DNA from: Labyrinthula sp. Ha
Taxonomy: Eukaryota > Sar > Bigyra > Labyrinthulida > Labyrinthulaceae
DNA length: 64,000 bases
Assembly (NCBI GenBank): GCA_015227615.1
Contig: JAALGZ010000007.1
Coordinates: forward strand, 62,001-126,000
Direction of reading: 5' to 3'
Positions 3,309 to 64,000 of the stretch are shown piece after piece. A model generated the notes under the pieces. It did not search any database, had not been told where the DNA came from, and saw only the letters and a program-made list of their open reading frames with translations. The first letter of the stretch is position 1. Every line of letters starts with the position of its first letter. Made by a program: the position numbers and the translations under genes.

Positions 3309-4560
3309 ATGAAGGTTATAGTTTCAGTTGTGGTTACACTCGTAGTGACTTTTATTACGGCTATTGCTGTCATTGCTGTGCGTGAAAATACGCATAATAA
3401 CTCTGAAAACACCTATATTGCTCAAAATATGAATGCACAGGAAATTTTGGAGAAACGTGTAAAAGATATTTGTCGAAGAGTGAAAACTGGTGCCAAGACT
3501 AAGGTACGCTCAGCTGACTACATATCTATTATATTTGACCAGGTACCAACTATTGAACAGTGTTCTGATTTTCTTTTAGCATCAGCAAGACTTTCAACAG
3601 CTGTAGGAAAAACAAATCATAACCTTAATATGCAATCAGATAATACTTATAATGTAGATGATCTGTGCGGAGTTGAAGTTCCAAATAATCCTGTGCTTCT
3701 TTACCAAGGAGAGAATATCCAAGATTTAACTATCGTAGTGGTATTTCAAAAGTTTGATGGACCTGGAAACTTATTTGCATATGTATATTTTTGCTCCTTT
3801 TTTAGTGTAGGCGGGACCATGTTATATTTCTTCCCGTTTTAAACTTCCTCTAGTTGGAACTATGTTTTTCGACATTGAAGATATTTCAAAAGTCGCAGAT
3901 TATGGCAGATTCTATGATGTTGTTCTTCATGAAATGATGCATGTTCTTGGTTTTGGAACACTTTGGAATCAATTTCCAGGAAATTCTGGAAAGTTTCTAA
4001 CTTCTATTGATGTCCTTAAAGATGAAGTGTATGATATTGATGCCTATGGAAAAATAGTAGGAATACATGGAAACAATCAACCAAAATATATAGGCAAAGC
4101 AGGAGTTCGTGCGTACCAGAGATTGATGGGGAAAGCTGAAAATTTCTTTCCTGTTCAAGGAACAAGAGTAAATGGGGAACAGATCTTTAATGCGCAAGAG
4201 AAGGAAGGTGTTGGACGTATTGATAGACACCTTGAAAAAGATACATTTCAAGATGCGTTAATGACTTATAACCTGGACTTTAATACTGGTAGCCCTTTAA
4301 CTAAAATGAGTATTGCAACTTTAGCAGATCTTGGATATATTGTTGATGACTCAGTTGCTGATGATTATATTCCTACTATTTCGCGACAACTATCAAGTGA
4401 ACGTAGATTGCGAGGAAACAGTGAAAGCAGTTTTGATTTTTTTGACGATGTGTTGCCTATTGTACCTAAGATGATGCAGATTAACTCTGATGGAAAAGGT
4501 CACTTCAATGTATTTAAGAATGTTACTAGTTTAAAGAGCTTCCATCAAGTGCGAAGATAG
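3309..4560 (+). CDS. Leishmanolysin-like M8 metalloprotease, membrane-anchored or secreted
   Basis: Zinc endopeptidase of family M8. The start at 3309 places an uncleaved anchor or signal peptide at residues 1-24 (MKVIVSVVVTLVVTFITAIA...), so the enzyme should act outside the cytosol. Two exons, 3309-3782 and 3811-4560, joined across a 28-nt GT-AG intron, give 407 residues. The join restores the family block FDGPGN...AGPC...LPLVGTMFFDIED. The zinc site is HEMMHVLGFG at about 198-207. The third zinc ligand is probably His298 in GRIDRHLEKD, followed by the LMT Met-turn and the family-typical DLGYIVDD. The last 60 residues are polar and probably not part of the fold. An open frame extends upstream to 3255 without an ATG. 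The gene stands alone, with no close neighbour on either side. Confidence 0.88.
3783..3810 (+). other. 28-nt spliceosomal intron in the M8 protease gene
   Basis: Begins GTATATTTTT and ends TTTAGTGTAG. The upstream frame soon ends in the intron reading, while the downstream frame is open only from just after the AG. Removing exactly 28 nt joins LFAY to AGPCYISS, matching the order of conserved residues in M8 proteins. Confidence 0.85.
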
Positions 4561-9361: not shown

Positions 9362-11684
9362 ATGAAAAAAGGAACCACTTTTGTTCATGAAGAACCTTCT
9401 ATATTCTTTAAAATATGCGTCGCCTCTATCATGGGAACTCTGCTAATTATAGTACGAAACTCTTTATATCTTATGTATCTCTGTTAAATATGTTGAATTT
9501 AGAGAATACTCTTTTTGCGTCGAGAAAACTGAAGGGACGAATGTCCAAGACAAGTCTCAATGGAAGGGTTCAGAGTTGCCAGAGGAGCCTAAAGAAGCCG
9601 TGTTCATAAAATATGAAAATAATGATGCCATAAAATATAATTTTGTTTTGTCAAATCTTTATATTGAAACTTTTAAACGAATGGGAGTTGAAGAGTCTAC
9701 TAACTTAGAGCTTTCGGCGCTCGTTACAAACTCAGAAGTTGATAAAGTATTTGAAAAACTAGAAGAGTGCTTGGAAAACAGTATCCTAATTGATGAATTA
9801 AAAAAATACAATGTTTCTTCTCACCAGAAGTTGCAATATGAGACATTTTGCAGTGAGGAATGCATTAAGACAGAGAACTTTTTTTTCAAAATAATAAGTG
9901 ATTTATACTTCAATAAAGGGGAATCTCTTTGGCTGCAATCATCTCTACCACTTTCTTTTCTCAAACTAAAGCAAATAAAAACTGCGAATATCAGCTTTAT
10001 AATCTCCACTGAAGAGTTGGTTTCCTCATTCAAAGAAAAAGGGCTGGACACAAGGCAAGATGACAGTGATCAGTTAGTGCAGCGGCAGGTTTGTAAAGGT
10101 CTTTTACCTTGTTTGGCAGAATCAGAAAATAAAAATATTCAAAGGTACCTTAAAGACCTTATGGCGGAATTAGGCGGAATGTTTTCTGATAAAGGGCTTC
10201 AAGCCTTCCGTATCAAAATAGGCGAACTTGAGCAAACTAGGAATACGGCACTCGTCAATCAAGTGTTAGAAACTTTTATATCTTTTTTTCCTTTGCTTGA
10301 GTCACCTCTTTTGTTGAAACGTTTTGATATTTATCAAGTATCTAGCAAAAGAACTGAAGTTTCAAAAATAGAAACTCAACAAGAGGTTGCCATGTTCTTA
10401 ACGAAGGTCGCAACTAAAGTTATAGACAAGACTAATGATAACATCTTCGCAAGCAGCACGAACCTAGCTCATGGTTGCAAAGTTAACTCCGTAGGAGTGC
10501 TAAGTTGTCTTCCTTCAGTGCTAGTCATAGGTGCACAAAAAGCAAGTACTGACGAATTTGGCGTGTGGTTGAACTTCAACAAGCATATGAGGCGCCTCAA
10601 TGGTGGAACTGAGACTCACTTCTTTGATTGTATGAGGGAAGAGCGTCCGGAACATGATAAAGTCGTAATTAATACTTGGAAGAAGCAACTCCTTGATGGA
10701 GGATTCAGCTCTATTGTAGAACAACGTTTGGCTCAGCTAGGAAACCAAGTAATAAATACTTCATGGAGTAAGGATCGTAAAGTATGTCACAGAAAAAGGG
10801 CATCTGTTCCATCCTCGTTAACAACTCCAAAACAGCAAAAGAGAATAATGGAAAACTTTAGTTGGAATGCCATAACAGGAAATACGAAAGGCTTTAAACA
10901 GCCCATGGAGATGTATAGAAGCTTAGGCAGAAGATTAGATACAGTCTCAGAAAGACAGGTTAGACTCTTTGACAAAACCCCTGCATATTTTGATCTCGCT
11001 GACCCTAAAGAAGTGTATAATGCTATGCCCAACGCCAAGATTATCTTGCTTCTGCGAAATCCTGTTGATAGATTATACTCTGCTTATTTTCAGCACTGTC
11101 GGCGACCAGGCTCTCTAATGGTTTCAACGAACTGCACTATTGAGAGGTTTGCTAACTTTTTTACCTCCTCCAAAGTTCAGGACAGCATGGATGCGCAAGA
11201 AAGTCTTACTAGAGCACTTATTCATGGGCAATATGCTAATCATTTAGTGAAGTGGACCAACAGTTACAGGCCTGAAAACGTTTGTGTTTTGTTTTCAACT
11301 GACTTTAAAAGATATCCAAGAGCTGTGATGCAGATTGTAGAAGACTTTCTCCGACTCCCTAAGCCATTTCACAGGTATCATCCAAGAAAAGTCAATGGAT
11401 ATTTCACACTGGGCAAGTATAGTAAAGCATATCATTCCTTTAGACCACCCCCTCTAAATTCAACAAAGCTTGGACAGGAAGCACAGGAAATTTTGTATAA
11501 ATTTTATTCAAAGTTTAACAAGATATTGAGAAAGTTGCTTGTGGAGCTCCCCTTTGGTTGCATCTCGAACCCACAAACCGTAGATAAATTTGAAGCACTG
11601 ACGAATTCCATTCCAGCAGGATACTTCGAAGGATTTTCAAGGAAACCCTTTCTTAGCTTTCCAGATTGGTTAGCAAATTCATAA
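9362..11684 (+). CDS. Type II membrane sulfotransferase (heparan/carbohydrate sulfotransferase-like)
   Basis: Transfers sulfate from PAPS to an acceptor, probably a glycan in the Golgi lumen. The start at 9362 gives a short cytoplasmic tail and then a signal anchor (FFKICVASIMGTLLIIV). A 28-nt intron (9475-9502) joins this exon to a long second exon; the product is 764 residues. The C-terminal half is a sulfotransferase fold. The 5'-phosphosulfate loop is LVIGAQKASTDEFGVWL at about 377, and the 3'-phosphate site is FDKTPAYFDL ... KIILLLRNPVDRLYSAYFQ at about 530-565. The roughly 300 residues between anchor and PAPS loop are charged, partly helical and not recognised. Without the intron the main frame has no ATG, which decides the start. 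The gene converges on POLE2 with 20 nt between stop codons. The acceptor substrate cannot be told. Confidence 0.88.
9475..9502 (+). other. 28-nt spliceosomal intron in the sulfotransferase gene
   Basis: Begins GTATCTCTG and ends TTGAATTTAG. Phase 2: AT before the intron plus A after it forms an Ile codon. Removal joins the signal-anchor exon to the large frame, which otherwise lacks a start codon. Confidence 0.82.
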
Positions 11685-11704
11685 AATGTATTGCGCTGAA
11701 GTAT

Positions 11705-13639
11705 TTATTCACAAACTTGTAGAAACTCAACCGTTTTGTCCCTGTTTGGATAGATTTTGGTAACACACCTATCTTGGATAAAGCTACCCGTTCCAACGAT
11801 GGTACAATCTTCTACCTTTTCCCCAAAGCGAATACCGGGGTCAGCACAAACTACAATATCTGGCAGAGGAGTCAACCTGAGTGAGGAGTCCTTTTGCGCC
11901 ATAGTTAAAGTTGTGGACGCCCCTGTGCCGTTTATTAGGGGGAACAAATGAGCTTGTTCTATCAGTGTTCTAGCTATAATTCTTCCTATAGTATCATGCT
12001 GGGGGTTATTTATGGAAGATTCTGACATTTCTTGATATAAATTCTTGTTAAAAACTATAACTTCCTTTCCGCTAAAGTTAAACCTGCAAGGGTTTGAGGC
12101 AAAATGTATTTTTGGTTTTATTAGTCTTGGTTCGTTCCTTGGAACAACTGCGTCTTGGGTGTCGATTAAGCTGAAGTCAACTGGAGTACTTCCAAAAGCA
12201 GTGTCGAGTGTACTCTGCTTTGTAAAGTCCATCTTATTGGATTTCTTCTGAAAAACACGTTTAAGATGCAGATTTATCTCAGCTTGAAAGGCATCAACAA
12301 ATGATGCCAACAACGGTCCATTAGGTAAAACTTGTGCTGTTGCAGTAGGGTCCAAATTGCCAGGAACAAAGCAAAAGCTGCATTTTTCAAACAGTCTATA
12401 ACCTAGAGTTTCATCTAATTGAATGAGTTTATGTGCTAGATCTGTGAAAGTTCGTCTAAAATTTTCTCTATTACCAATACTATTTGAAGGGAGATAGTTT
12501 TTCAATACCCTCTTTGGGTTAGTGGAGCTTTTCAATGCTTGTAAGACATCCTCGGGAACTGAACAGAGAAAGTTTCCGGCAAACACAACCATATCTGGGA
12601 GCGACTTACCTTGTCTTGCTGAATTTTCTATTTGTTGCATCAATTTACCAAAAAGGGTATCTATTCTGACTTCAGTTATAACCATAAAATAACTTTCCTG
12701 TTTTGTGTCAGGATTTTCTTCCTGCAGCAGTACTTGATTCTGACTCTGGAAAAAATTATGGTGCAGCCTAAGTGTTTCTATCCTGGCTTGAGCAGGAGGA
12801 AAACCTATTGAATCAACTTGAAACAAGTTCTTAATGCAAATCCCTTGCACTATCACAAAACAACCCTCACAAATGTAAACGTCAGTGGAACTCGTTTTCT
12901 TTTCTTCCTCTATTGAAAAGTTTAATTTCAATTCAATACTTGTTTCAGAGTCTTCCAAGTAATAGCTATCGTCTTCGTGTTTAACTAACAGCCCAAACAT
13001 AACGTGTTCAGGACTTTCCTTGCTCGAACCGATTAAACTCGATATCGGAGTTAACTTAATAGAAGCACCTATGTAAAAGGGATAATAAACACTACTATCA
13101 AAGGTATTGGAGGAGTTAAATGCAGCGTGGCTTTCAATCCTATGTCTCAAAATCTCATATCGCTGACGAAGAAATGAATGACGACTTGAAAACTCTCTCT
13201 GTGTCCAAGAGTTTCTTTCCTCGGGAAAATCAAAATATTCCATTCGCTTCTTTGAAGAATTGTACCTAGAATAAAATAGATGTTACATGTACCAGAATGG
13301 TCGTAGATTGAATGAATTAATTATCTGTAGTTTCTCGCTTAACCGTGGAGAATTTTTGTTTTGTTCTGCTTCAACCTGACAAGTTTCTTGAAGTAATTGA
13401 TTAAGAATATTTTCAATATCTTCAATTCCCGCGCTTGAAGTTCTTCCTTGCGAGTTTTCTGGACTATTCTCATCTCGGACCTTTGTCTTCTTTAACTCGT
13501 TTAGTATCATGTTTAGTGACTCGTCAATATTCTCCTCATCCTTTAATATTTCAAGCAAATACTTCACCCCTTCGCTGTTCACAAGTAACCGTTTTGCTTT
13601 TAATCCCTTTGAAATCTTTTTCAAAATGTTTCTTTCCAT
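11705..13639 (-). CDS. POLE2: DNA polymerase epsilon subunit B
   Basis: Second subunit of the leading-strand replicase, nuclear; in this family the phosphoesterase fold is inactive. Exon 1 (13639-13293) encodes a Dpoe2NT-type helical domain (start MERNILKKISKGLKAKRLLV, VKYLLEIL). Exon 2 (13265-11705) carries the junction motif YNSSKKRMEYFD, FLRQRYEILRHRI, an OB-fold region and the calcineurin-like domain (MVVFAGNF, CFVPGNLDPT, NPCRFNFSGKEVIVFN). With the 27-nt intron removed the protein is 635 residues, between human (about 527) and yeast Dpb2 (about 690). It is divergent from the hydrolase gene (204 nt between start codons) and convergent with the sulfotransferase. I am sure of the family. 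Confidence 0.95.
13266..13292 (-). other. 27-nt spliceosomal intron in POLE2
   Basis: On the minus strand it begins GTACATGTAAC and ends TTTATTCTAG. Its length is a multiple of three, but read in frame it contains a stop. Splicing forms a Trp codon (TG+G) and joins SFNLRPFW to YNSSKKRMEYF, exactly where POLE2 proteins have an aromatic-Tyr-Asn motif. Confidence 0.88.
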
Positions 13640-15562: not shown

Positions 15563-18500
15563 ATCTGTTCATACATATGAATAAACGTTAGATTTACACT
15601 GTACAGAATGCTTAGTGGTACTGTATATCTAGTTTTTTGTTTAACCTTAAGCTGAGAAAAAAAACTTGATCCCCTAGGATTATCATAGTTGAAAGGATCT
15701 AGTTCAATTGTTTTCACGCAAGAAACTGCCGGTAAATAAACAACCGCTATGCGGTGGCTAGCGTTCAGTGACTAGTTTTGGTTTGAAGGCCACGCTAAAG
15801 GGATTATAAGACCAAGACTGGGAATGCAAAGGTTTCAGCTACCCACATTGCTTTGTAGCCAAGCAATTTAATGTTTTATTTTTGTTTTCCTTGATTGCTT
15901 GTTAGTATGGTTCGTCTTGGGTGCAAGTTAAGAATGAAGAAATATCCGAGTACAATATGGTGCTTCAACTTCCCCGTTTCAAAACATAGCTGCTAGGAAA
16001 CCAACTCAGCTGAAGTTGAAGCGTGATTTATCTTTGGATAGTTTGCCTTTAATTTTGGAGAAAATAACCGCACTCGCTAGTCTCAGGGCACAAGTAACAT
16101 TAAACGCAAAGTGAGTAACTAGAAAGAGAAAGAATCTACATGGAACAAGATCGGTTTAATATGAACTCTAACGATAAAACATACTTGATATGATTAAGTG
16201 TTGGACTTTAAAATTACATGCAAGAGGTTTGTTTCGCTCTTCATTATCTCTAATAAGTCAAGATATACTTGCCACAAAAAAAAGATTACAGTATTGCAGA
16301 CATGCTGCTATGAAAAATATAACTATTTATGAGTATATATCCCTGTGCACTACTTCACTTTATGTTCTAATTGCTCTCAGGTGATTTGAGACATTCATAA
16401 TATCTTCATTGGTAATAAGCGCTGCAAACTTTTTCAAAAGATTGAATTTATTTTATAAAGAAAAGCAACAAGAAACGATAATACTACGAATAATTAATAG
16501 CATTCACGAAATTGAGAACAAAACTTTGGCATTAAAAAATATATTGATACGCTTTGTACTGAGGACTTGACTACAAGACGCTGCGTTTGTTTTGCCTCAG
16601 AGGGCAACATGCGTGTCCGCCTACCTATTGTGCAGGTCTCAGAGTTCTCATCACATTAGCGGCACCATTATCCTACTTAGTTGGAAAATGTGATGATTAA
16701 CTTCGCTAAACAGTCTTCTTTGTACAGATTCTAGTATAACGGCACTAAAACTACACCAAATACATGGGTGGCGCGGTGTTCTTTTTGCATGTATACAGCC
16801 TTGAAGCCTTGTTCAACTGCAAAATCGTATTTTTGGTGTGAAATGTTCAATGCCTCAGAAGACCATCAGGGAAGACTTAACTGAAACCAAGAGGAATTTG
16901 CAGCGTTCTACATTACTTATAGAATCCTCAAGACTCTAAGGGTTTATGCCATCGGGATTACCTACACGTCAAGAAAATTGAGAATTACAAATTGAACAAT
17001 AAGATCGAACCTGTTTCTGTTGATCCCGAAGTAAATATATTATATTTTGCTTTATTCACTCTAGAGTCAAATTGCTTTTTTGTAATCGAATCTTTTCTAG
17101 CTCCATAAAACCTCAACAGAAAGTTCAAAAATTATAAAAAAATACATGATCAAGAAGCATTTTTCAAAATTAGGAATAAGTTTTAACAAGAATTTTCAAT
17201 AATGAAATTAATTTATTTTTTTCCTGATTAAAAATAGGAAATGCAGAATTTTGACTGTTATTAAATGATTCTGTAACTAATTTGATTATTAACCCGCTAA
17301 TAATAATCAACCAAAAGAGTTGAATAAATATCAATGATCATTGATAGCACTAAACTAGGTACAAAACTTATAGATAAGATGCAAATTAACCGGAATAGCT
17401 CAAATAACTCCGTTGAAAGTCAAAGTTGTAACACCAGTAACAAGATATGGCCTCATTTCTGTAGTTGCTCAAGCGACGAATTAACACTGAACAATGCACA
17501 AGCTCTTCTAAAACTTAAAATTCATCTCCCTCATCGACCACTTGGTGGATTCACATCAAACTTTATCTCATTGAGATTCTTAAGACACAGGCTACACAGT
17601 CAGAGCAAAGTCAATGTATGTGTGAAGGTATTCTCATACTGTAGCAGGAATTAAGACCTGATGTATCCCTAATTAAAGACAAAATACAGCATAGAACCTC
17701 TTTGTAGAATTAGAAAGCAATTGAGAAACTAATAAACGATGGCAGTGTTGATAATGCTACAAGAAAAATGAGCCCAATGAGACATCAAAATGTGGAAACG
17801 TTACACCCCTTCCGTGAATTAGTAGGAAAAAACTATCTAGAAAAGCAGAGAAGGTTATAATAACCGGATCCAGATTTGAGTAATATGAATAAAAATTAAA
17901 CAAAATTTAGCTGATTTCTCCGAAGAACTAAATCTAATTATGGTATTTTCATTAAACCATGAGTATGTTCTATTTCATTTATCTTAATTAGGAAAAAACC
18001 TTTATAGGAAGTGAAGTTATTATAAGCAAATCAATAAACTTCCAAACTTGATTTAGGAAGTAGGCCAAGAATATCCATTTTTCATTACTCACGGATTAAA
18101 ACTAAGATTTATAAATATCTTTTAGTGTTGCTTACAATAGTTCTTAATATTTTGTGTAGTTTGCTTTACTGTCATTACTACATGAAAAGGGCTTTTACCG
18201 AAATCAGATCTAATTTTACAAGAAAAAATTCTATGAGAGAAAAAAGAGAAATATCCATAGTAAAAGTCAGAAACTAGAAACATATTGTTACAAGAAAATT
18301 ACAAAACAAATATTTTGCTCAACTTTGTATCCCTCTTCCAAATACCAAGTTGTCTTCATCCTGATAAAAAAAGAAACGATTCTAGTATTGAAGCAACAAC
18401 TAAATCTCTATCCACTGTCTCAAAGTGGTAATTCTGCTCTTAGCTATACGGGGTAACAGTTTTATCGAATATATCCAGTAACTCCCTTGTTTTTACCTTA

Positions 18501-21500
18501 TTGCCCCATAACTGCCTTTGTTACACATTGGTTGCATCTCGACCTTCTCTTTGCGTTGGTTTAGAACTTGTTTGCCAAGACTTGTTTCTATTCCTAAAAG
18601 CATAGGTCAATAAAATTGACAGGTTAGGGTAGATGGACCTGCAATGAAACTGAACAATACATATATAAAGCAATGTGTTTTTGACTATTTCTCCGCATAT
18701 TAATAGTAGGTGATTTCATTAGATCATTTCAGTTATTTGCCCAAGAAACATAAATACTTAGCAAAAAAATATTTTCTATAAAAGCTTAAACCACAATGAC
18801 TTGCAAAGATTGGGTGGGTCATTTAAGAACAGTAACAAAAATATTGATCACTTTTTCTCGATATCTGGCTTAGTGTACTTATCTTTCAGGGAAGTATTTT
18901 CTCAGCAAATGCTTTTGTTCTAAATGTACTGAATTGAAGAGTGTATGTTTGAACTAAACAGAAAAGAAACTATACAATTGGAAGACCATTTGGATATGAT
19001 GTGAATGAATATTAGAAGAATAGCCCCAATACTTCGCGGGGCTTACTCAGCAGTCATCATAAATTTTATTCTAAATTTCTATCACCTTAAGGAAAATTTC
19101 GCGACAAAGTAGATATAAGCTTCATAAACATGTTGAATACTAAGGGTAACTTTTCTTACTACTTGTTGAGGAAAAATCCCGTTGAGGTCGCTTTATTCAC
19201 TTGTTTGTGGTGTAACTTGATATAATAAGCCGGTTTTGTTGCCGCGTATTTAGTTGTCTTTTTGTGGAAACCTCACGACATAGTTTTCACCATGCCACGT
19301 AAGCAAGTACCAAAAAACTGAAATATGGAAATACAAGATATATGTTCTTAACCGTTTATTGGTGGTATTAAGTGCAAAAAGTTCTTGTGAAAAAGTGTGT
19401 ATTCAATTTTAAGAGTGTTTTTGAAGCTACAAGCAAGGTTTTACGTCTAATAAAGTATTCTACACTACGCTGTCTAAACTCTGTGTCTGTGGTAATTCTG
19501 GATGCGCACGTCCGGTTTGTTTACTCGAGACGGAAAACCTCAATATACTCTAATCATTTAATCTAAAAGCATGGATTGAGTGTTTTGCAGTTCTAGAGTG
19601 TAAATATAGCTTGCAAAGCCTAATTATATCAGACATGGCACTTCCCAATTATTACATTGACATATTTTCTCATAGAGAACTAGAAATTATTATTCTTTTT
19701 CTTGTCTACAATCTGTAGCAATTCAAGTAATTAAGCAGGAAAATTCACACTTTTTATCAAATTAGAAACAACAAAAGTGCCGGTAAGAGGTTTTTCTATC
19801 TCAAGTAGAAATGGTATAAAGAATGTTATATATTCAGAAGATAAATATTACTGAATCTATGATTTTCTTTGAATTTAATTTGATTTTATTCTCGAATGAG
19901 AGTTTTCCTAGTCTTTTACAATCTTTTCTCCATATCTGATACTGAGAAAAGTAATAAGAACGTTTCAGTACACCTGAAACAGTTTAATTAGAAAAAAATA
20001 CTCGATGGCCATAAACTGCAATAGTCTTTTCAAAGTTTGGGTCAACAATATCGCTCCACCGATATAGATTGAAATTGTTATTTCATAGTCAAGCTTGATT
20101 GAATGGTTTTTAACATCCTCCTTCTAGCCTAGTTAAATTGTTTTCTTTGGTTTTTTATAAATTTTTATTCGCTTGGTAACTTGAATTAGAAGAAAAGTTG
20201 TCCTGTGCTAAAATTATATTTTAACTTTTTAAACTATACAGAACAGCACAACTATTCAATTACTGCATATGGTATGCCGAAATAAAAGCTAGAGTTAGAG
20301 CTATGACCATGTAATATGTTCAAGTAAAGCAAGAAAGAATAATATTAAACACACTTGTTAACATATATTAAAGGCAAAAATTTTTATGTATCTTAATTTT
20401 TTATTTGGGTTGATTCAAGCGCTTCTCGCCTAAAGCAATATTATTTTTCTTTTGAAAATATTTGTATCTGAAAAGAAGTAGTTATATGTCACCTACCATT
20501 TATATGCAACAACGAATTTACATAAATCAATAGTTGGGATAAATTATCCCCCAGTATACATTTAAAAATAAAACAATATAAGTTTCTTACCAAACACCTT
20601 GCACATGGATATCAAAATGTAGATTAAAAACACCGTAGAGCCCGGCATACTAGCCTGTACAGAATAACACCATGAGATTAATTACTAATGGAACTTTCGT
20701 GTATATTGCATTTGGGTCTAACGATCTAAAACAGCGTGATCAAATGGCATCATCTCAGGTTTGAAAATAAATATTATCTATGAAGTGTTTCATTCCTTTC
20801 AATAAATTTCATTTCTTATTTTATAGCTCATTTACTCGTTTACAAGGTCTTCATTAAGACGTGCAAGATTCCAATGTGCATAATTAGCCAGAATTATGAA
20901 CGTTAATAAATGGAGGGAATTGAGGTCGAAGCAAAAATAAGTAGATAATAAATACGGTTTTCGACACATTTTTGTGAAACATACAAAATATAGTTTATAT
21001 GTTTCGTCGTTCCTCAAAATCAAATTTCCTCGAACCTGAAATTATATTCGACATAACTAAACTAAAACCAGTGCATAAAAGCAACAAAAGACTATTCTTA
21101 TAAACGCCGTGAGAGGAAAAACTAAATACACTTATATACCGATAGTAAAGGAACGTATTTTCTCTACGAATTATTGATAAGGAAACGGTATTTCACATTA
21201 ATTTCCGAGAATAGAAAGCCTCGCCTTTTCAATCAAGCATGCTGCAAGAATTGAGGAGATGAGCTCCTCGCAGAGAAAGAAGAGATAAGTAGTTCCTTAG
21301 AACAGAATCACCTACCAACAGATAAGAAAGAACTCTCTTACTTCAACCACTTATTATCCGAGTACAATGGCTATACTATCTTAAATATACGAAAAGCATA
21401 TTTAGTATCATGTTCGAGTTCAAAAGGCCAGTTTCTCACAATCTCTGTGAAAATATTATCAAACGAATTTTGTTTGATCTATATCGATATGGTGGAATGA

Positions 21501-24500
21501 TGTGGAAACTATAACTGGATCTAGTAGGCTCAATGAGAATACTTATCGACTGTTCAATATATATCTTGCTTTCAGTGTGGTTGGTTTTAGTAATCTGGTT
21601 TCAAAACTAAAGCTGAATCCTTTGTTCAACAACTTCGTGTCTTTTGATGCCATATGACTTCTTGATGAAGTTGTAGAAGGTATTAACACGAAGATTCGAT
21701 AGTCTCATGTAGTGAGTATGCCTTTCTTGGATTTTCTTTGCAGATTTTCAATATTTTGGAGGGGAATGTTTCTAATGGAGTGGAAGGGTAGAATATTTGG
21801 GTGTTGTGTTAAAGGAAATCCTTCGTAGACGCGGAATCATAAATTGTTTTTTTGAATAAAATTCGAGCATGGTTTCGCAGATTTTGTGCTTATAAATCGC
21901 CTTTATCTTGGTAGCTTACTAGAGGAAATGGTAAAGTAGTTTCAATATAGCTCCGTAATTGTAACCTATAGTGGATGTTTGTAACATGTACGTATAGAAC
22001 CTAAGAAGAAACTCTTTATGTCACCCCTTCCTTTCTTTGAGTCATCTTTCTTCCTAGGGGGATTCAATGTTACTCCAAGACTCTCACATATCGGATCCGA
22101 ATATCCAAACACAATATCTTCGGTGCTTTGAAACATCGTAGACGACTTAGATAGGATTCAAATCTCTACATTTCTCACATCTTCTGATTCTTCATCTCAC
22201 ATAGTATAATCTACACCCACTTAGTAATAATGGTGTTTTACAGTTTGTTTCTATGTGAAACCGTTCTTCTAAGGTCCTAAAACCTTTGAGCCAAACTCGA
22301 ACTGGACTTGCCAAATTTTTGTTTTCTATGCTTCCTAATAATATTGTTTTAAAGAAATAAATTTCTCGTTCATCTCATTTCTGAAAACTATAAGTCTACT
22401 TTATAAAAAATAGTCTTTTCTCTGAAACAGACCTGTGAAAGGTGTCTACATGGATAATTATGGTTGTTTCATGTTTCATAGCTGCACTGTTGAATTGTGT
22501 CTTATCCATTTTCTTAATTTGAGGAGTAGTTTTTTTTTTCTTTAAGAGAAAAGTTCCATAGCTCATCATATATTTATTTTCACCAACCTTTTGTTACCCA
22601 ATATCTAAACGTTACTTTTAACTTGATCATAGAAAGGTTGCAAACTAAGTTTCATATCTGGGTCTTTTATTTCACAAGTCTTTACAAATACTTATCATAA
22701 ATGTAAGAACTTGGCAATATATTTTATTTTGGTGATTCACAACTTTTACTGCCAAAACTTTTTCAGAGGCTCCTATTTTGCTTTCGCTTCCCCACTGAGT
22801 TAAGTAGCAACTATTTCGGGTACTTTGTATGATAATAGCTGAGAGCTATCCATCTGAGTTTGGTCTATTTTTTCTGAATCCCTAGAAATTATTTAGATAT
22901 TAACTTTAATATGTTGTTAAGATCTGAGTAAAATGCTAATTTAGTTGCTTTGTAACAGGGAAAGTTTCATTGGCAGCTTCTAATAGCTTCTAATAGAACC
23001 TTATTAACTGGTCATCTCTTACACACTTTAAGTATTATCAAAAAATATAGCAAGATTATTTTGATAACGAATATTTCTTGCAGTATACTTCCTGGCTGTT
23101 TAAGTATCTATTGAATTTATCAGGGACATTATCATAACCCTTGCAGTATATATACCTAGAGCTATGAGCCACCAACAATATATATCTCACACTTTCCATC
23201 GGCAGCAAGGTGCTTAAATTTTTATTATCATAATATTACCTTCAGTATCTAAGTGAAAGCCAATAGAAGTCAGTATTTACTTCCTACATGCCCAGTATCA
23301 AGCCGAATGAAGTCGCTATACACTTTTATGTTTTCTTTGTAGAAGATCCTTAGACAACAAATATTCTAGTACAGTAGAGAGGTCATAATGTAACTCATAC
23401 ATTTATCTATGGGCAGTGAATCCTAGCTATATATCACTTTTTTAAATTTCTTTTTGATAATTGTTTAATCCATTTGTTAACTTATTTGGACCACCTTTAA
23501 TAAGATCTATTAAAAATATATCACCAGGAAAGCTTCACCAAACGACAGTGATAACGAGTGGTAATCTTCCGTCAATGATATTAAGACTGTGAAGTAGGTT
23601 AAAGTCTTGTTTTACTCTCCAATCAAAAGATATATACTAGATCTGTGTAACCTCACTTCGTGATACAGGCATCTGGAACTAATGGCGGTCAAGATCCTAC
23701 ACATCTATATGTTTAAAGTAAATATGTGTGCCAAAATTGAAAATTGTGAGATCGCAATTTAATATACATATCTTCAGCTTTTAATTATTTATTTTAAATT
23801 AAACCTTAGCATATATTCAGGTATGTTCAGCTGTTGTATTCTTTTCTTGTGTGAGCGTGTGTTTTGTCATGAGCCCGAGGTACCAGGAAATTCCAACCCC
23901 TACTTATAATTTGAAAATGATCAGTATTTCTTTTGCATTTTTCATTGAAGTTTCACAAGGATTTAATAGCTTCATTAAATCGTCTTTATTGCTAAAATTA
24001 AATATAAGCTTAGATTTGACGTTTTCCTGGTTGACGCTCTGTGATATGAGCTGCTAGGTTGAACAAGACAAATATGTAGTTCTCTGTCACCATGCTATCG
24101 ACCAATTCTAAGGCGCAAAAAAGATAACAATTGAGCTTCGTGAATCGAATTGGTAGGATTTAAAGCTTCAATGCTTTTAAATTCATTGCCTCATCTTTCA
24201 AGGAGGGTAACTCAGAAGTACTAAGCATTAGTTGACAGTATTTAAAGTTAACAACGGAATGTTATTAGTTAATGCTGCTACTTGCTGCTTGACACAGGAT
24301 TATATATATACCCATTTTATCTATTTTTTCTTTAGGTAATAAAACAAAGTGAGGGACTTAACCCAAATAAAACAATTACAACCCTTGCCATAATTTAAAT
24401 ATGCGTACTATTATATTAAATGATGAAAGCAGAAAAAAACAAGTAACATATGCTTTCGAAAAACTAACTATAGCTCCTATATAAGGAATAAACTACTACG

Positions 24501-25654
24501 AGAACCTCGAGAAACATCTTTACCGAGCTCATAGAATATCGGAGATTTAAGTCATAGAACCATATCGCAACTTAATTGGATTAAGCCTCACGTGTAATAA
24601 TAACTTCGTCAGATAAGCTCATACCTTTCTTTGCTTAATAAATAATGGAAAATAAAAATTAATCATCATATCTACATATTATGATTAATAAAACCTTACC
24701 TGAAACCAAATTTGAGAAAATTTTCAAGTGTTTTCAGACACCTGCTTAATTTGGACCGTTCTTTATATGAGCTCCCAAATGAACTGAGCAGTTAATATAT
24801 ACTGCTAATGGTTTTGAACATAAATAAGTAAAGTGTGTTATAATACAACTGATTCTAGCTGCATCGTTCGCTTCTGTTTCAAGACATGAGCATAATTGGG
24901 TTTACAGTATATCAAGTGCGTAGTATTGATCCAACATTTTGTACTTGTGGTAGTTGTGGCCGGAGATATATGGAATTGTATATATTCAATTAAGATATGA
25001 TCTAACGAAATTAGAAATTTTGACAGATTGGTATAATTAAATGTTATAAATCCAAGCAGTTCAGAAGCATAAAGTTTGTAGGAAATGTAAGAGAAAATGG
25101 AAAAGTCTGCATGTGGACTAGAAACAACAGAAGTTCTTGAGGAATTCTCATAGTTCTCTGATTTAAAAAACTATAATTCTTTAAATTAGTATAAATAGAG
25201 TAATCCATCAATGGTTAAACTCTCTAGATCACTTTGGGGTGCACAAAGTTGATATTAATACTTCTTACTCCTAGAGTGGTACTGTAGTTGGTCAAAAGAA
25301 GAAGTTAGGGTAAAAGTGTTAATTATATTAATAAAAATTTTTATTCACATAATTTCATAATTAGGTCTTGTTTCTCTCAAGCTGAAATAATAACATATAA
25401 AACTGCTGGGAAGTTTCTTCCTAACGCTGACTTGGGTGACGTGATTCTTTATTAAACTTTATATGTTTTATATGAAGGATTCCAACCTTATTTTCTCTTA
25501 AGAAAAGGTGATTAAATTAAGTCGCTGTCTAAATAAAGTTTTGGAATACTTGGTAGCGCTACAGTAGTCTAAATCCTCTTATGCTTCGTAACGGATACTT
25601 CGTCTCGAAGTATGAGTTTGATATTTAGATGGTACATTACTACATATACTAAAG
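15563..25654. other. Gene desert (10.1 kb)
   Basis: No intact gene was recognised on either strand. The longest frame, 17334-17654 (+, 106 codons), has no known motif and an improbable composition. Short coding-like fragments occur on the minus strand around 21.7-22.1 kb and 18.4-18.6 kb and on the plus strand around 21.27-21.5 kb. They are too broken to assign and are probably decayed mobile elements. The rest is AT-rich with homopolymer runs. Confidence 0.45.
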
Positions 25655-26539
25655 ATGAAGCTTAAGATTGGAGTGTTGCAATTGTCTCCTATTCACGGTC
25701 AAATAAAAATTAACTGTAAGCGTGCTGAAGAGATTCTAAAGACAAAAATTGGAAAAAGGAATTTGAATGCGCTTGATATTCTTGTTCTTCCCGAAATGGC
25801 CTTTTCCGGTTATCTCTTTAGAAATAAAGAAATGATAGAACCCTTGATTCAAGAAGCTATGGAAGAAACAGCAAAATTTTGTTCAATGACGGCCAAAAAT
25901 TATAATTGTTATGTAATATCTGGTCTTCCACGCTCGGATGAGATGGGTAATTTATACAACTCCCAATATGTAGCAGACAAACATGGTGACATGGTGTCTC
26001 TATACGACAAGTCCCATCTCTATGAAGCTGATGAAACATGGGCAACCGAAGGAACAGGTTTTAAAACAATATCCATGAATTTTATCGATGTGAATGAAAA
26101 CTTACAGGTTTTAAAGGCTGGATTAGGTATTTGTATGGACATTAATCCAAAAGGATTCAAAGCTCCATACGAAAAGTATGAACTCTCAACTTTTCATCAA
26201 GATCAAGCTGTAGACCTACTGCTTTTTTCATCAAACTGGTGCACTCATGGGGAAGAACCGAATAGTTTTCAGACAATTAACTATTGGTTTGATAGGTTAA
26301 AACCTTTATATAGCTCAAACTCTGGCAAGAAAACTTACTTTTGCTGTGCTGATCGAGTTGGCACTGAAACGAACGATCTACTAGAACAAGGAAAGGAAGG
26401 AGTAACACCTTTTTGTGGAACTAGCTGTGTTATATCCTTAGATGATGACTCCTGTTCGGGGTCTAACATGAGTGAGTTGCTCTTAGGTTATCTAAACTCC
26501 AAGGATGAAGATTTATTGATTGTTGAAGTCGATTTGTGA
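25655..26539 (+). CDS. NTA1: Protein N-terminal Asn/Gln amidase (nitrilase superfamily)
   Basis: Likely deamidates N-terminal Asn/Gln of proteins, the entry step of the Arg/N-degron pathway in the cytosol. The single frame of 294 residues contains the whole carbon-nitrogen hydrolase fold: Glu47 in VLPEMAFSGY, Lys119 in YDKSHLYEADE and nucleophile Cys160 in GLGICMDINP. The sequence after the Cys (NPKGFKAPY, then a SFHQD-like helix) and the LYEADE motif are characteristic of yeast Nta1 rather than of beta-alanine synthases or plant nitrilases. It is somewhat shorter than yeast Nta1 (457). No intron. The upstream neighbour is 10 kb away; the downstream gene converges on it. Other amidases of the superfamily remain possible. 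Confidence 0.85.
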   Translation: MKLKIGVLQLSPIHGQIKINCKRAEEILKTKIGKRNLNALDILVLPEMAFSGYLFRNKEMIEPLIQEAMEETAKFCSMTAKNYNCYVISGLPRSDEMGNLYNSQYVADKHGDMVSLYDKSHLYEADETWATEGTGFKTISMNFIDVNENLQVLKAGLGICMDINPKGFKAPYEKYELSTFHQDQAVDLLLFSSNWCTHGEEPNSFQTINYWFDRLKPLYSSNSGKKTYFCCADRVGTETNDLLEQGKEGVTPFCGTSCVISLDDDSCSGSNMSELLLGYLNSKDEDLLIVEVDL

Positions 26540-27152
26540 CATTCTGAAACTATCATCTCATTCCAGAAGTTTTATAAGCAATACTTTTCTTTTACACTAA
26601 TAGATACAAAAATAACATTTTAAAACCAGAATGCCGTTCAAAGAGGAATAACCCATGAATTATCTGTATTGATATTATTAAAATTACAAACTATTGAAGA
26701 ACGGCAACGTTATACTGAGGAAAGTTTGACTAACCATTGAACAGAGGAATCAAAAAGAAGTTTTGACAGAAAGAAGATAGTAATAATATCAATGTGTTGT
26801 AAAATGAGTGTAAATTAGCGCAAAATTGAAAATTGTTATTCGTTTCTTGATGGAAGAAAGCCTTTCCTTCGTAATATAAAAAAATCGTATGGCTATATTT
26901 CTTATTTGCATGGATGTTTTTCTGGTTGCTTCAGTCCTGTTGAGTAATCAGAACATCGAAATGAATACCGAGCAAAGAGGTTCAAGTGTCCACGCTTATT
27001 TGAATCAAGTTTAAAGTTAGAATAATAAATTGAAGGTCACGAGAACAATTCTCTTAGCTGTGTGCTTTACGGAAAAGGACTTACCCAAAAATTTACCTAA
27101 CAGAAGTACATGAATAGATACTAAGAGAAAAATTACTTTGTTTTTCGGTGAC
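26540..27152. other. Intergenic DNA, 3' of NTA1
   Basis: AT-rich non-coding DNA without recognisable features. Confidence 0.4.
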
Positions 27153-27335: not shown

Positions 27336-27398
27336 TGAGAAAAATTGAAAGTTTGAATTTAATGAGTGCCAAAAGGTTAAATTTATTTACATTTCGGT

Positions 27399-29021: not shown

Positions 29022-29034
29022 AAGTAGATATCTC

Positions 29035-31528: not shown

Positions 31529-31597
31529 GTAAATATATTGCTGTTTCGCAAGGTCAGTTTCCTTCTGGGTGATAATGTTGTTTGCAAAAGGGGCTTA

Positions 31598-34013: not shown

Positions 34014-34015
34014 AG

Positions 34016-40945: not shown

Positions 40946-43168
40946 CAGTGATGCTCAAATCTGGCCGCCCACTAATATCCGATATCCTCAGTCCGACCAC
41001 CATACGTCCCCACACGAAATTATTAGTGGCAGGTTGCGTGGAGAAATTACTGCCAGGAGCCCACAAATAAAAAAAAAATTGCCCTGTGTCCAATCCGGTC
41101 ATTGTGAAACCGTTAAAATAAGAGTTAAAAACCACAACTTCGGATAAAAATGAGTATTGATTTGACAAAGTCTGCCACAGAAATGATCCATGAGGCTGCT
41201 CCGAGACGAGATCCAGTCCTTTTTGCAGTAATTAAACAGAATTTTGACATTGGAAAACCCGAATTAACAAAAAAAGCGCACGTATTCAAGCTTCCTTGCA
41301 AACATTACCCAAGAAAGATGACTTGGTGGAGTAAAAAAGGTTATACTGGTCTCATGGAACACCTGAAAACGCACTTAGACGAAGAAACTATCGAAAAACT
41401 AAAAGAAGAACATGCAAGAAAGCGCAGAAGAAAAAGCAAAGATATTCTGGAGTTTATGAACATTGAAAAAAATGATGCTTTCAAGAAATATATCTGTAAC
41501 TTTTTGCTAGAGAAGAATATGCCCTTGAGCTGGTTGAGAGCCGAAGATTTTAAAAATATCAGGCTAGCTGATGACGTTGTAAGTGAAAACACGATGAGAG
41601 TTTATATGAAGCGCATGGAGCACCTTTTTATAGAAAAGATCAAACAAGAAGTGGATTTAGAACTATTTTGTTTAGTCATCGATGGTTGGGCTCACCAAGG
41701 TTACAGTTTTAATGGTGTTTATTTATGTTTCGACAAGATGAAGAAGATGACGTTTCGCCTTCTTGGAGTTCTTCCTTTAGAAAAAGAAACCCAGAGAGCT
41801 AGTGACATTGTTCCTTTCCTGAAGAATTTGATGAACAAGTTTGCTCTTGATGAATCACTGCTGGTTGCTATTGTTGCCGACAGCACAAACACGAACAAAA
41901 AAGTTTGCAGAGATCTTGGAACGCAGTTTGTGGGCTGTCTTAGCCATCGTGTGGCTCTAGGTGTTAGAGCATTTATCAAATCTCAACCAGAGTTATCCGA
42001 AGGTTTAGACAAAGTGCAGTTGCTTTTTCGCAAGATCAAGAAGTCAAAGAAATTAACAGCAGCTCTTAGAAAATATACGGATAAAGTTGTTGTTCTTCGA
42101 AATGTGACGCGTTGGAGTGGAAATTTTCTCATGATGAAAAGGTATCTTGACATTTGGATGTTCATTGCGCAGATTAGAGACGATGAAGTTAAAGATCTTA
42201 TTCTGGATCAGGGTGGAGTAAGAACTCTGGAAAAACACCTTCCCTTTCTTGCTACCTGCGACCGGTACACAGTTGCTCTTCAAAATCCAAAGTTTAACCT
42301 TGGAAATGGGAGGAAAGTTATTGCAAATCTCTTAAGAGATGTAAGAAATAATGATTGTTTGTTGAAGTATTTAGAAGATGATGCAGATATTTTGGCTGAG
42401 TTTGGTGCCTTTGAAACTAGAGTGTTTAAAGTTTATTGGGAGGAAGAAGATAAGCTTGATGCAGGAGAAACAACAGCTTTGACCAGATTAGTAAAAGATC
42501 CTTCTGAAGAAGAAGAGAAGACCCCACCTGGTAATTCTGTGGCTGCAGAGCTCGCTTCTCAGAAAAGAAAAAGCAAAAAGAAGAGTCCATTTGCAGATGT
42601 GAGCTTCATTCCGGCGACTTCGTGCTGTGTAGAAAGATTGTTTAGCCAGTGCAAGCTGATTTTTAGTCACAACAGAAATAGGATGGTGCCTGCAACTTTA
42701 AGCAGACTTGCATTTTTGAAGATGAATCAAGATGAGTTGATGAATCGCAGCGTTAATTTTTCTATAAAAAACGAGTTCCAGGTTTCGATTATGGTCAAGA
42801 AGACAAAGAGATGGAGGAAGAGCATGAAGCAGAAGAAAGAGAAGATTTGACACTTGATGGAATTCGTTTCTGTGAAAAGGAGGTGCATAGCGATGACGAA
42901 GCTTAAGCTTTAAGGGTTATTAATATGTTTTATCTTTTCTTCATATAAATATGTATTACTGTGTAAAAGTTTAGCCCCAACCTAACCTTCTGACCTATAA
43001 AACTCTTGAGAATAAGGTACAGTTTGCACAGAAAAAAGCAACAATATTTTGTGCAATTTGCGCGTAGTCGCGGGGACGCCGAGGTTTCCCACACTTGCCG
43101 CGTCCCCACAGATTTCCACGGAAATAGTGGACCCGTAAAAATCCACAAAAAAAATTTGAGCATCACTG
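40946..43168 (+). mobile_element. hAT-family DNA transposon, nearly whole
   Basis: Terminal inverted repeats CAGTGATGCTCAAAT (left 40946-40960; right 43154-43168 in inverse) match the hAT end type CAGTG. Both ends are preceded by a further shared C. The flanking 8-mers CAAGTATC and GTAGTAAC agree at 5 of 8 positions, so the target duplication has eroded; the right one fits the hAT nTnnnnAn pattern. Subterminal CGTCCCCACA occurs at 41005-41014 and 43101-43110. Near the right end GGGGACGC (43073-43080) is inverted against GCGTCCCC (43100-43107), perhaps transposase sites. The element is 2.2 kb and carries one transposase gene. Confidence 0.9.
41150..42850 (+). CDS. hAT transposase with intact core
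   Basis: A 566-residue cut-and-paste transposase. The N-terminus has a degenerate BED-like zinc finger (FKLPCKHY...HLKTHL). The RNase H-like core shows the first catalytic Asp in CLVIDGWAHQGYSFNGV, the second in VAIVADSTNTNKKV...CLSHRVALGV, the conserved Trp in RNVTRWSGNFLMMKRY, and Glu in the hATC dimerisation block (IPATSCCVERLFSQCKLIF, NRNRMVPATLSRL). The last 20 residues are basic, but the alternative frame from about 42783 to 42908 gives an acidic tail (FDYGQEDKEMEEEHEAEERE...HSDDEA), the usual hAT ending. A one-base frame shift near 42780-42790 therefore altered only the tail. Activity is possible but unproven. Confidence 0.9.
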   Translation: MSIDLTKSATEMIHEAAPRRDPVLFAVIKQNFDIGKPELTKKAHVFKLPCKHYPRKMTWWSKKGYTGLMEHLKTHLDEETIEKLKEEHARKRRRKSKDILEFMNIEKNDAFKKYICNFLLEKNMPLSWLRAEDFKNIRLADDVVSENTMRVYMKRMEHLFIEKIKQEVDLELFCLVIDGWAHQGYSFNGVYLCFDKMKKMTFRLLGVLPLEKETQRASDIVPFLKNLMNKFALDESLLVAIVADSTNTNKKVCRDLGTQFVGCLSHRVALGVRAFIKSQPELSEGLDKVQLLFRKIKKSKKLTAALRKYTDKVVVLRNVTRWSGNFLMMKRYLDIWMFIAQIRDDEVKDLILDQGGVRTLEKHLPFLATCDRYTVALQNPKFNLGNGRKVIANLLRDVRNNDCLLKYLEDDADILAEFGAFETRVFKVYWEEEDKLDAGETTALTRLVKDPSEEEEKTPPGNSVAAELASQKRKSKKKSPFADVSFIPATSCCVERLFSQCKLIFSHNRNRMVPATLSRLAFLKMNQDELMNRSVNFSIKNEFQVSIMVKKTKRWRKSMKQKKEKI

Positions 43169-43736: not shown

Positions 43737-44505
43737 ATGCGACACTGTGCAAGGAGTATGATCAATCACTTTTCTCTGGCTGTTGTTGAAGAGAATAATA
43801 GTGTTGTTCACATCTCAGTTACTTCCAAAGGTGAAACCACTTTACTTAAATTTGAATTAAGCAGCAAAGAAGCTCATGTCTCACCTTTGTTCTCTGGTGT
43901 TAGCTGGTCTTAGTCTATTCTCATTATTATTTCTTAGGGAATCTTGTTTGTGGGCAGCATCGAAGGAGTTAACAAAGTATGCTTTGAACGAATTACAAAT
44001 CGAGATATCCAATAAGACTGTAATAGAACTTGGATCTGGCATTGGTCTTTTGGGTATTTCTTTAAGTTTTCTTCGTCCTGCGCAAGTTCTTTTAACAGAG
44101 AAGAACCCAGAGTTTGCGTTACTAAAGAAAAATGTTGTCAAGAACAATATAAGTTCTAGTATCTCATGTCAAGAGTTGGATTGGACAAACTCTAAGCAGA
44201 TTAATGAAGTTTCAAAAACCCAATGGGATTATATATTTTTTACTGATTGCGTTTCAATAGATGTATATGGAGAGAAGATTATTGAAGCCCTTGCACAAAC
44301 AGTATTGATGTTGGTTTCTAAATCTACAGTAGTTTATTTTAGTGCTACTGTACGGGAAAACGATGGATTAAATGATTTTATTTTTCTTTTGAAAACGAAA
44401 CTTGAAACTGAATCACTAGATGTTATCATTTCCGAAATGAAAGAAACTGAAACAGAAGAGGGTTTGTGCAAAATCTACAAAATGTTTTATGCGCAGAAAG
44501 AATAA
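43737..44505 (+). CDS. FAM86/METTL21-type protein-lysine methyltransferase
   Basis: SAM-dependent class I methyltransferase of the lysine methyltransferase-16 family. Members modify EF2, chaperones and similar proteins in the cytosol. Exon 1 (43737-43906) and exon 2 (43938-44505) join across a 31-nt intron to give 245 residues. The join restores the family entry motif PLFSGVSWESCLWAASKELTKY. Motif I is TVIELGSGIGLLGISLSF; LLTEKNPEFALLKKNV is the acidic-loop region and WDYIFFTDCVSID the post-II motif, with TDC in place of the usual SDV/ADV. The N-terminal 55 residues form a beta-rich extension. It is convergent with the 7-TM gene (318 nt between stops). Which protein it methylates cannot be told. 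Confidence 0.83.
43907..43937 (+). other. 31-nt spliceosomal intron in the methyltransferase gene
   Basis: Begins GTCTTAGTCTATTC and ends ATTATTTCTTAG. Phase 2, forming a Trp codon (TG+G). It joins two frames that are otherwise out of register and creates the family's WES/WDA-type motif. Confidence 0.82.
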
Positions 44506-57420: not shown

Positions 57421-57426
57421 TTCTGT

Positions 57427-62615: not shown

Positions 62616-64000
62616 ATGAAAGAAACTCCACCACAAGATACAAAAACGGAATTAATAGATAAAGTTGATATTGGAGAAGAACCCAAGGTATATATGAGGT
62701 CATGGATTTATTTCTTAGGTTTATTTTCGGAGATGGATCGTGCTAGTCGCATACAGTATAACTATGTTCACTTGGGCCTTAGAAAGTTATAGACATGTCT
62801 CCTTAGTTTCAGAGTTTTCACTCTACTATGATACAACGAATGAGTTTAATCCAGGAGATGGAGAATGGGGAATAGATTCCATAGGTCTTGTTTCCACTTC
62901 AGTTGCTATGATCACATATCCAGTTGCTGGATATATGGTCGATAGATTTGGACTAATGAGTGTTATTTTTGGTGCTTTTCTTCAAGCATTTGGTGGTTGG
63001 GTTTATGTCTTAGGTGGTCACAATTTAAACATGGCATTGCTGGCAAGAGCAATTATCTCCACAGGTGGTGGATTTCTTGCAAGTTCTATGCTTAGAGTAA
63101 CAGGAAACTGGTTTCCACAGAAAGAAAGACTTTGGGCTATTGCAATAAATTTTTTTATTGGAGGTTTAGGAAGTTCTGCAGGTTTAGTTTTTCCTTTTGC
63201 TTTTGTGACTGGTGATGAAGTAGTTGATTTAGAGTTAAAAAGTTGCTTAGAAGTGTATAAAGACGAATACTTGAGTGAAGTTCATAATTCTACAGAGTGT
63301 CCTCTTGAAGCAGATAACAGTTTCTGTATATTTTATTTTTTGTCTTTTATTTTAGGTTGCGCTGCACCTACAGAGATTGACAGAATGTACCTTTATTTAG
63401 CACTAATATTGACAGGAAGTTTTCTACTCACCTTGATTTCTGTTAGAGATAAACCACCAACACCAATTGGATACTCAGGAGAAATTACAAAATCTGTCAA
63501 TATATTCAAAGCATATAAAACAGTATTTTCAAGAGCAAACTTTACTTTAATCAATCTTGCTGACTTTTGTGCCTCTGGAGTATTTTTTGTTGTGTACGCA
63601 ACAATCTCCCGTGTTATGCCTGCAAACTTAGTTGAAATTGCTATTTATGTTGCTTCAATTAGTTTTGTCATTACTTTTCCTATAAGTTATCCATATTCAC
63701 AATATGTTGGTAAGCGAAATGCTTATTATGATGCAACTGCTTGGTTATATTACGCTGGATTTTTGTGTTATTTGTTTGCGGTAATTGGTTTGGCTGTTGG
63801 AGGTAATGCGCAGTATTTGATTTTAATTGGAACATCTTTTGCTTCACTTTTATATGTTTTGTGGAAGATGACAATTTATGAATTAAAATTGGAATATGCA
63901 TTTACACCTGAGTTTGCTCTGCAAGGAACAGTAGTTTCTATTGATCGTATTTTCGCAAACTTATCATCTTTTGCATTTGTTGCAGCTATTCCACCAGAAA
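62616..64000 (+). CDS. MFS transporter, FLVCR-like (partial, runs off window)
   Basis: Multi-pass major facilitator of the FLVCR/SLC49 type (heme, choline or related solutes in known members). The 5' exon (62616-62687) encodes a polar tail. A 31-nt intron then joins GEEPK to VYFRRWIVLVAYSITMF, the family's Y-x-RRW entry into TM1. Motif A between TM2 and TM3 is GYMVDRFG; ARAIISTGGG, VTGNWFPQKERLWA and FFIGGLGSSAGLVFPF follow in FLVCR order. A second 30-nt intron (63326-63355) probably interrupts the region before TM7. At least 441 residues are present, and the 3' end lies outside the window. Substrate not determinable. Confidence 0.85.
62688..62718 (+). other. 31-nt spliceosomal intron in the MFS gene
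   Basis: Begins GTATATATGAGG and ends TTATTTCTTAG. Phase 0. Without splicing the frame reads into non-homologous sequence and soon stops; with splicing RRWIVLVAY follows directly. Confidence 0.87.
63326..63355 (+). other. Probable 30-nt stop-free intron in the MFS gene
   Basis: Begins GTATATTTTATTTT and ends TTTTATTTTAG. It is divisible by three and open, so unspliced mRNA would still be in frame. It encodes a hydrophobic insert (IFYFLSFILG) in a loop segment. Its donor shares GTATATTTT with the M8 intron. Confidence 0.78.

Follow-up and report, generated by a model that had tools for sequence, protein, structure and literature searches.

A narrow class of ultrashort GT-AG introns in a sparsely interrupted eukaryotic genome, accompanied by a variant U6 box

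The region analysed here, referred to as the window, is a stretch of 64,000 nt (bases 62001-126000 of the 2.09-Mb contig JAALGZ010000007.1) from a eukaryotic assembly of 50.84 Mb in 153 contigs, and the subject of this report is the set of GT-AG introns of 27 to 31 nt that interrupt some of its protein-coding genes. Codon scoring across the window yielded 22 coding segments, which we grouped by eye into about 15 main genes separated by long tracts of non-coding DNA; the window is thus not compact, and its GC content ranges from 32 to 41% when read in 2-kb steps. The standard genetic code keeps long frames open, and a different code, which was also considered, is for that reason unneeded. Pfam matches named a sulfotransferase-domain gene, a DNA polymerase subunit B gene (POLE2 by homology), an abhydrolase, a nitrilase, a WD40 protein, a diphthamide synthesis protein, and an M8 peptidase-like gene, the last scoring just below the curated cut-off. 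Intron density is low, with six introns placed in the approximately 15 genes of the window, in a genome of 50.8 Mb.

A reading of the window from its letters alone (the sequence-only reading) had proposed seven introns of 28, 28, 27, 30, 31, 31 and 30 nt. Six of them could be placed, and the first and last reproduce exactly the ends of the proposed span (3783 and 63355), but one 30-nt intron was not identified. The first, on the plus strand (3783..3810; 28 nt, phase 0), interrupts the M8-peptidase-like (leishmanolysin-type) gene, with frames on both sides, a Peptidase_M8 match downstream (20.8 bits against a cut-off of 21), and paralogues that occur with and without the intron. A predicted intron of 28 nt on the same strand (9475..9502) lies near the 5' end of the sulfotransferase-domain gene (Sulfotransfer_1 downstream), where its removal would connect an upstream ATG with the long frame of the gene; the frame agrees with this placement. 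On the minus strand, a 27-nt intron in the gene for DNA polymerase epsilon subunit 2 (13266..13292; DNA_pol_E_B) removes an in-frame TAA. An alternative donor giving 21 nt is also in frame at this site and was chosen in the public EukProt model P0001 of POLE2, which has the same two exons and an annotation edit distance (AED) of 1.00, presumably denoting a model without evidence; the EukProt POLE2 record is 99% identical to that of the window, and the 27-nt choice fits the intron class better. The Methyltransf_16 gene contains an intron of 31 nt on the plus strand with an unusual GTCTTA donor (43907..43937), whose removal restores a continuous frame into the domain (E 1e-24, the match starting just 3' of the intron), whereas a 25-nt alternative would create a stop codon at the junction. 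The last two introns, both on the plus strand, belong to one MFS transporter gene: that at 62688..62718 (31 nt) joins an ATG-bearing first exon to the long transporter frame (MFS_1, E 1.9e-11), and a predicted one at 63326..63355 (30 nt), in frame and open, has the top intron-motif score of the window. Support differs from site to site: paralogues at 3783, a frame restored into a known domain at 43907 and 62688, the removal of a stop at 13266, the motif at 63326, and the motif together with the start codon at 9475.

The M8-peptidase-like gene allowed the same site to be compared across a family. A search of the genome with its second exon gave 51 matches, 40 of which were fetched around the match start. 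A GT..AG intron occupies one exact phase-0 position in 25 of these 40 paralogues, with lengths of 27 (one copy), 28 (six), 29 (nine), 30 (five), 31 (one) and 32 nt (three), while 14 of the 40 are intronless with contiguous codons, the absence matching a GT..AG excision exactly. Across the family the intron sequence has diverged and its length has not, a few copies being near-identical duplicates. A FastTree of the first-exon piece, available for 38 of the 40 copies, placed the intron-bearing copies in one group, which also takes in a single intronless copy; the root of this tree is arbitrary. Several M8 matches contain stops, and in one copy (L039) the donor of the shared site, 31 bases ahead of exon 2, reads TT rather than GT, which may mark either a pseudogene or an odd donor. 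Many M8-peptidase-like paralogues lie at C110:483131-647114, with more on other contigs.

Homology across short introns was also found in other genes. The coding sequences on either side of a 30-nt intron in a DUF1365 gene align to profile positions 13-69 and 78-133, and in a GTPase-like family the intron interrupts the first glycine codon of the P-loop GDGRTGKT (the Roc match being weak, below the cut-off). The 30-nt intron of this GTPase-like family (L076, L079, L091) is nearly identical between copies on several contigs, which possibly reflect a recent gene family expansion. In the METTL16 gene (L117 1501-2178, minus strand; C88:1119299-1119976), to which the EukProt METTL16 record is identical, removal of a 29-nt GT..AG intron, starting from the ATG where the public protein P0126 maps, reproduces the sequence of that protein, and the interval separating its two mapped pieces is exactly 29 nt; the alternative solutions among those listed begin near the end of the locus and are run-off artefacts. 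The MAKER string of P0126 gives an AED of 0.00, counts 2 exons and sets splice-site confirmation at 1, fields that we take to mean transcript support for the splice sites, and this 29-nt intron is the only RNA-related support for the class.

A decoder using codon statistics and GT..AG ends only, in which all lengths between 12 and 400 nt had equal prior weight, was run on 264 kb. Its calls included 10 GT-AG introns of 27-31 nt, compared with 0-4 (mean 1.5) for 12 control dinucleotide pairs, although three of the ten lack the motif found in the rest and may be false. As it recovered one of the six introns placed in the window, plus a doubtful call at 42782, the decoder is insensitive, and its yield of 10 short introns per 94 predicted genes is a lower bound. 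In the same 264 kb it gave no excess of longer introns (41-100 nt, 10 against a control mean of 14.3; above 100 nt, 23 against 23.7) and no excess of introns with other dinucleotide ends. A motif search of the genome at a fixed length of 30 nt showed no excess either (13 matches, 16 in the control). With the length left free (GTATNT, 9-39 free bases, TTATTTTTAG; 25-55 nt in total), the pattern matched the genome 124 times and its reverse 57 times. Among the 100 matches listed, 12 measure 28 nt, 12 measure 29 nt and 32 measure 30 nt (56 at 28-30 nt), and 36 are scattered across 33-55 nt; distinct sequences among the matches listed number 81, of which 40 are of 28-30 nt, and after near-identical rows among them were merged 21 clusters remained at 28-30 nt, with another 30 distributed among the 23 lengths from 33 to 55 nt (about 1.3 per length).

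The coding context of such matches was then compared in 20 of 28-30 nt and 20 of 33-55 nt, hand-chosen down the list from the 56 and 36 matches listed, with 200 bases fetched on each side. Splice-compatible coding flanks were present in 13 of 20 at 28-30 nt and in 0 of 20 at 33-55 nt (Fisher P 1.3e-5), the 13 being partly dependent (three are copies of the GTPase-like family and two of another gene), and the weaker flank scored at least 6.5 in the passing cases and at most 3.3 in the controls. Since none of the 20 inspected matches of 33-55 nt has splice-compatible coding flanks, the same ends at the wrong distance are not introns. The decoder, the motif search, the flank test, the M8 paralogues and METTL16 all agree with the sequence-only reading in its central claim of a narrow ultrashort GT-AG class in a non-compact genome; a broad distribution of lengths, which it had named as contrary evidence, was not seen with these partial methods, apart from a few longer candidates, among them a predicted 52-nt intron in the Prp8 gene. 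At C72:453887-454370 (L003/L004) one 30-nt intron occurs twice in identical form, once on each strand and some 450 bases apart, an arrangement that a palindromic gene pair or an assembly artefact would give.

The anatomy of the class was described from a curated set of 37 introns, from which three found with a motif that fixed G at +5 were left out. At donor position +4 this set has T in 24, C in 8, A in 4 and G in 1; at +5, A in 18, T in 12, C in 5 and G in 2; and at +6, T in 28. An overlapping set of 35 has an interior of 62% T, with A at +3 in 34, T at -3 in 34 and T at -11 in 32. Donors read GTA-Y-N-T, with G at +5 nearly absent, and 3' ends are TTTAG-like. An A occurs at -7 to -10 in all 37 curated introns and likewise in every one of 39 introns of an overlapping set, for which shuffling gave a mean of 22.7 and the full count in 0 of 2000 shuffles; the introns outside the M8 family were partly picked by a motif that covers the last 9 bases, and 24 M8 introns were found by homology. 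This A is likely to be the branch point, as predicted from its position. Its commonest contexts (n = 39) are TTTAT (15) and TTAAT (5), and a TACTAAC-like word appears once. In 35 of 39 introns 20-22 bases precede the chosen A, a spacing that is no independent evidence of a ruler, because lengths are uniform and the A nearest -8 was chosen in ties.

The search for U6 RNA, in which 48 of 6155 candidates were scored, found one locus (L114 1501-1609; C46:223545-223653, minus strand), with 59.9 bits against a gathering score of 44. Its box reads AUAGAGA, the Rfam consensus being ACAGAGA, and the 20-mer ANAGAGAAGATTAGCATGGC has a single occurrence in the 50.8 Mb, carrying the T. The 3' part of this RNA pairs with the 5' end of the U2 of the same genome in U2/U6 helix II (10 pairs, -12.5 kcal/mol), so that it looks like a working U6. 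The ACAGAGA box is among the most conserved words in RNA, and the C that is changed here normally pairs with the G at donor +5, a base that was found in 2 of the 37 curated introns and in 2 of 40 distinct motif matches of 28-30 nt. A general compensation, in which the U of U6 would pair with A at +5, was considered and is unsupported: A stands at +5 in 18 of 37 curated introns, but the position is mostly T in the motif set. METTL16, the enzyme that methylates the U6 box, is retained with its NPPF motif, so that its loss is rejected as an explanation for how seldom A stands at +4.

In the passages available from PMC10581693, A at +4 accompanies the presence of METTL16 in yeasts, and the ACAGA box is invariant in the 240 species surveyed, 230 of them Saccharomycotina; a tunicate with mostly non-canonical introns is likewise described, in the available part of PMC13326754, as retaining the box. 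We found no report of AUAGAGA in a small nuclear RNA in the open-licence literature. In a prokaryote collection the variant box gave one match, in a spirochaete bin, with surroundings that are not U6-like, and the same collection held one canonical ACAGAGA sequence, in a bacterial bin; no U6 with an AUAGAGA box was found in the viral collection. Among the other spliceosomal RNAs, U2 is present in three copies, U4 is present, and U1 has three copies that score just under the gathering score and have a canonical 5' end. A search for U12 gave no match, and none was obtained in the control genomes either. The U1 and U2 genes form an inverted pair that is repeated on C96 (200293-222920) and again on C135 (72694-77477), and U4 and U3 adjoin U1 (L115).

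Taken together, the 27-31 nt introns of the window very probably belong to a class that is found across the genome, has its mode at 28-30 nt and is likely spliced in the ordinary U2-type manner by intron definition. That these segments are introns is held with high confidence from the sequence comparisons, and intron definition is what we infer from their size and motif. In the proposed mechanism, the ordinary U2-type spliceosome would remove these GT-AG introns through intron definition, each intron being recognised as a single unit, which would impose both a lower and an upper limit on length, with the branch adenosine probably placed 7-10 nt before the 3' splice site. The change in U6 and the loss of G at donor +5 would go together, leaving the usual C:G contact at +5 unused. 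A more specific and tentative proposal, to which we give somewhat less than even weight, is that reading of the 5' splice site has been rewired: U6 with AUAGAGA would have given up the contact between C and +5 G, donors would have drifted to GUA-Y-W-U, introns would have settled into a 27-32 nt unit recognised whole, and, with METTL16 kept despite the change in its U6 target site, the N6-methyladenosine of U6 would be lost or retargeted. The U6 variant appears to be the part most worth following, and it is also the part that rests on least, namely one locus.

Several observations weigh against these proposals. The U6 variant is a single locus in a single assembly, where a base error or a missed copy is possible; among the 40 distinct motif matches of 28-30 nt, 33 have T at +5 and one has A, so that A:U compensation there is not general; and METTL16 is present although A stands at +4 in 4 of 37 introns, which does not suit a simple model in which its loss makes that A rare. 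The transcript support at METTL16 was taken from an annotation string, not from alignments, the frequency of the putative branch A is unbiased for the 24 homology-found M8 members only, and 7 of the 20 inspected matches of 28-30 nt are without splice-compatible coding flanks. There are, in addition, candidates for longer introns, the clearest of them in Prp8. This gene has an uninterrupted frame of 2353 aa from an internal ATG and had been taken as intronless, a view that was rejected because two introns are predicted at its 5' end, one of 31 nt that opens into the conserved N-terminal block and, preceding it, one of 52 nt (L073, minus strand, about 150-305 bases from the start, contig C66). 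Decoder calls of 67 nt (L018 6330, minus), 234 and 325 nt (L014 6955 and 8407, both minus) and 174 nt (L023 7141, plus) have good motif scores, and the motif with 40-70 free bases (56-86 nt) gave 52 matches against 33 in the control, a mild excess with no length peak except for a repeat family near 57 nt. The Prp8 intron, the four decoder calls and this excess are what would be expected had a second, longer class been missed by the short-motif methods, as with types A and B of Trichomonas; on the other hand, the decoder, insensitive as it is, shows no excess of GT-AG introns of 41-400 nt over its controls, and all 25 introns at the M8 site measure 27-32 nt. We regard such a class as unlikely, having thought it rather more so before the 52-nt candidate in Prp8, which slightly lowered the claim of uniformity and took a little from a confidence in the single narrow class that stays high.

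A different question is whether the narrow lengths reflect recognition at all, as they could instead be the outcome of a deletion bias that shortens introns to the minimum tolerated by the spliceosome, with no upper limit set by recognition. The introns at the M8 site vary in sequence, and between 27 and 32 nt in length, as such a bias would allow; the long intergenic non-coding stretches of the window make a general bias less obvious, however, and lengths above 32-34 nt are seldom seen. We hold this to be a credible minority possibility. The segments might also be DNA that is excised before transcription, in the manner of the internal eliminated sequences of Paramecium, which are AT-rich and 26-30 nt long and therefore resemble them in length and composition. 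This is very improbable, given that the boundaries are GT..AG, that cutting at TA repeats would leave extra bases where the intronless M8 paralogues match exactly, that the frames use the standard code and Prp8 is stramenopile-like rather than ciliate, and that an A at -7 to -10 and T-rich 3' ends suit splicing. Frameshifts from sequencing errors, or pseudogene decay, could mimic introns in single genes, and the TT donor of L039 and the stops in several M8 matches speak for this. Against it, lengths peak at 28-30 nt, GT..AG ends and one motif recur both in genes unrelated to each other and in 25 paralogues, and errors would not give a whole inserted segment precisely missing from 14 others; we find this explanation hardly credible.

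The spliced class that we favour resembles several known systems, which are compared here from the available passages of the cited papers. Blastocystis, a stramenopile, is the closest in length, with a mode of 30 bp that accounts for 54% of the introns in ST1 (PMC5608401, PMC3129679) and a distribution that is sharp around 32 (PMC3129679), values with which the median of 19 nt given in PMC12817076 is at odds. It shares with the introns described here the length mode (28-30 nt here), the GT-AG ends and probably the major lineage, and differs in having 18,200-35,412 introns, at 4.6-6.5 exons per gene, in 12.9-18.8 Mb, compared with sparse introns in 50.8 Mb. In the opalinate stramenopile Proteromonas lacertae, the rquA introns have the position and size of those of Blastocystis (PMC5953543). 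The introns of mikrocytids, of 16-17 nt (PMC10245619), are similar in their very narrow range and conserved motifs, but are much shorter and belong to reduced parasites with a reduced spliceosome. Type B introns of Trichomonas, of about 25 nt (PMC12316389), are alike in being few and short with a T-rich remainder; they differ in coexisting with a class of 56-196 nt and in keeping a CTAA branch motif, whereas here no second class rises above the decoder controls and the commonest branch context is TTTAT. Ultrashort and narrow classes of 15-16 nt in Stentor and of 18-21 nt in the chlorarachniophyte nucleomorph (PMC10245619) are shorter and come from other lineages. The sequence-only reading had described such a size class as known only from a few eukaryotes, Blastocystis among them; Blastocystis is indeed the nearest in length and perhaps in lineage, but the list is longer and, from these passages, takes in mikrocytids and type B of Trichomonas. 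The length class is therefore of an already known kind, and what is new, as far as our searches go, is the sparse occurrence of ultrashort introns in a larger genome, and the change in U6.

The lineage of the host was approached through Prp8. Among the best 120 of 3315 relatives, Tribonema, Albugo and Aphanomyces share 74% identity with the query, and animals and fungi 72-73%, which is nearly as close, so that identity alone gives no placement. In a FastTree of 37 sequences the query falls inside the clade of these three stramenopiles, with supports of 0.78, 0.916 and 1.0 at successive nodes; its branch is long, several labels are shorthand for truncated records, and the tree has no Blastocystis sequence. 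The Prp8 of the host thus likely groups with those of stramenopiles, which makes a kinship with water moulds and diatoms likely, and a bigyran kinship with Blastocystis or Proteromonas would be a hypothesis only.

Ultrashort introns show how little RNA the spliceosome needs, and their occurrence in a genome that is neither small nor intron-dense argues against compaction as the cause. If the proposed rewiring is true, this genome would offer a natural test of the co-evolution of U6 with the 5' splice site, and of the role of METTL16 at an altered site. For annotation, gene callers with the usual minimum intron size may miss or misplace such introns, as the 21-nt choice in the public POLE2 model suggests. 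Elsewhere in the window, a hAT-like transposase frame lies at 41129-42850, with a dimerisation region that scores just under the Pfam cut-off.

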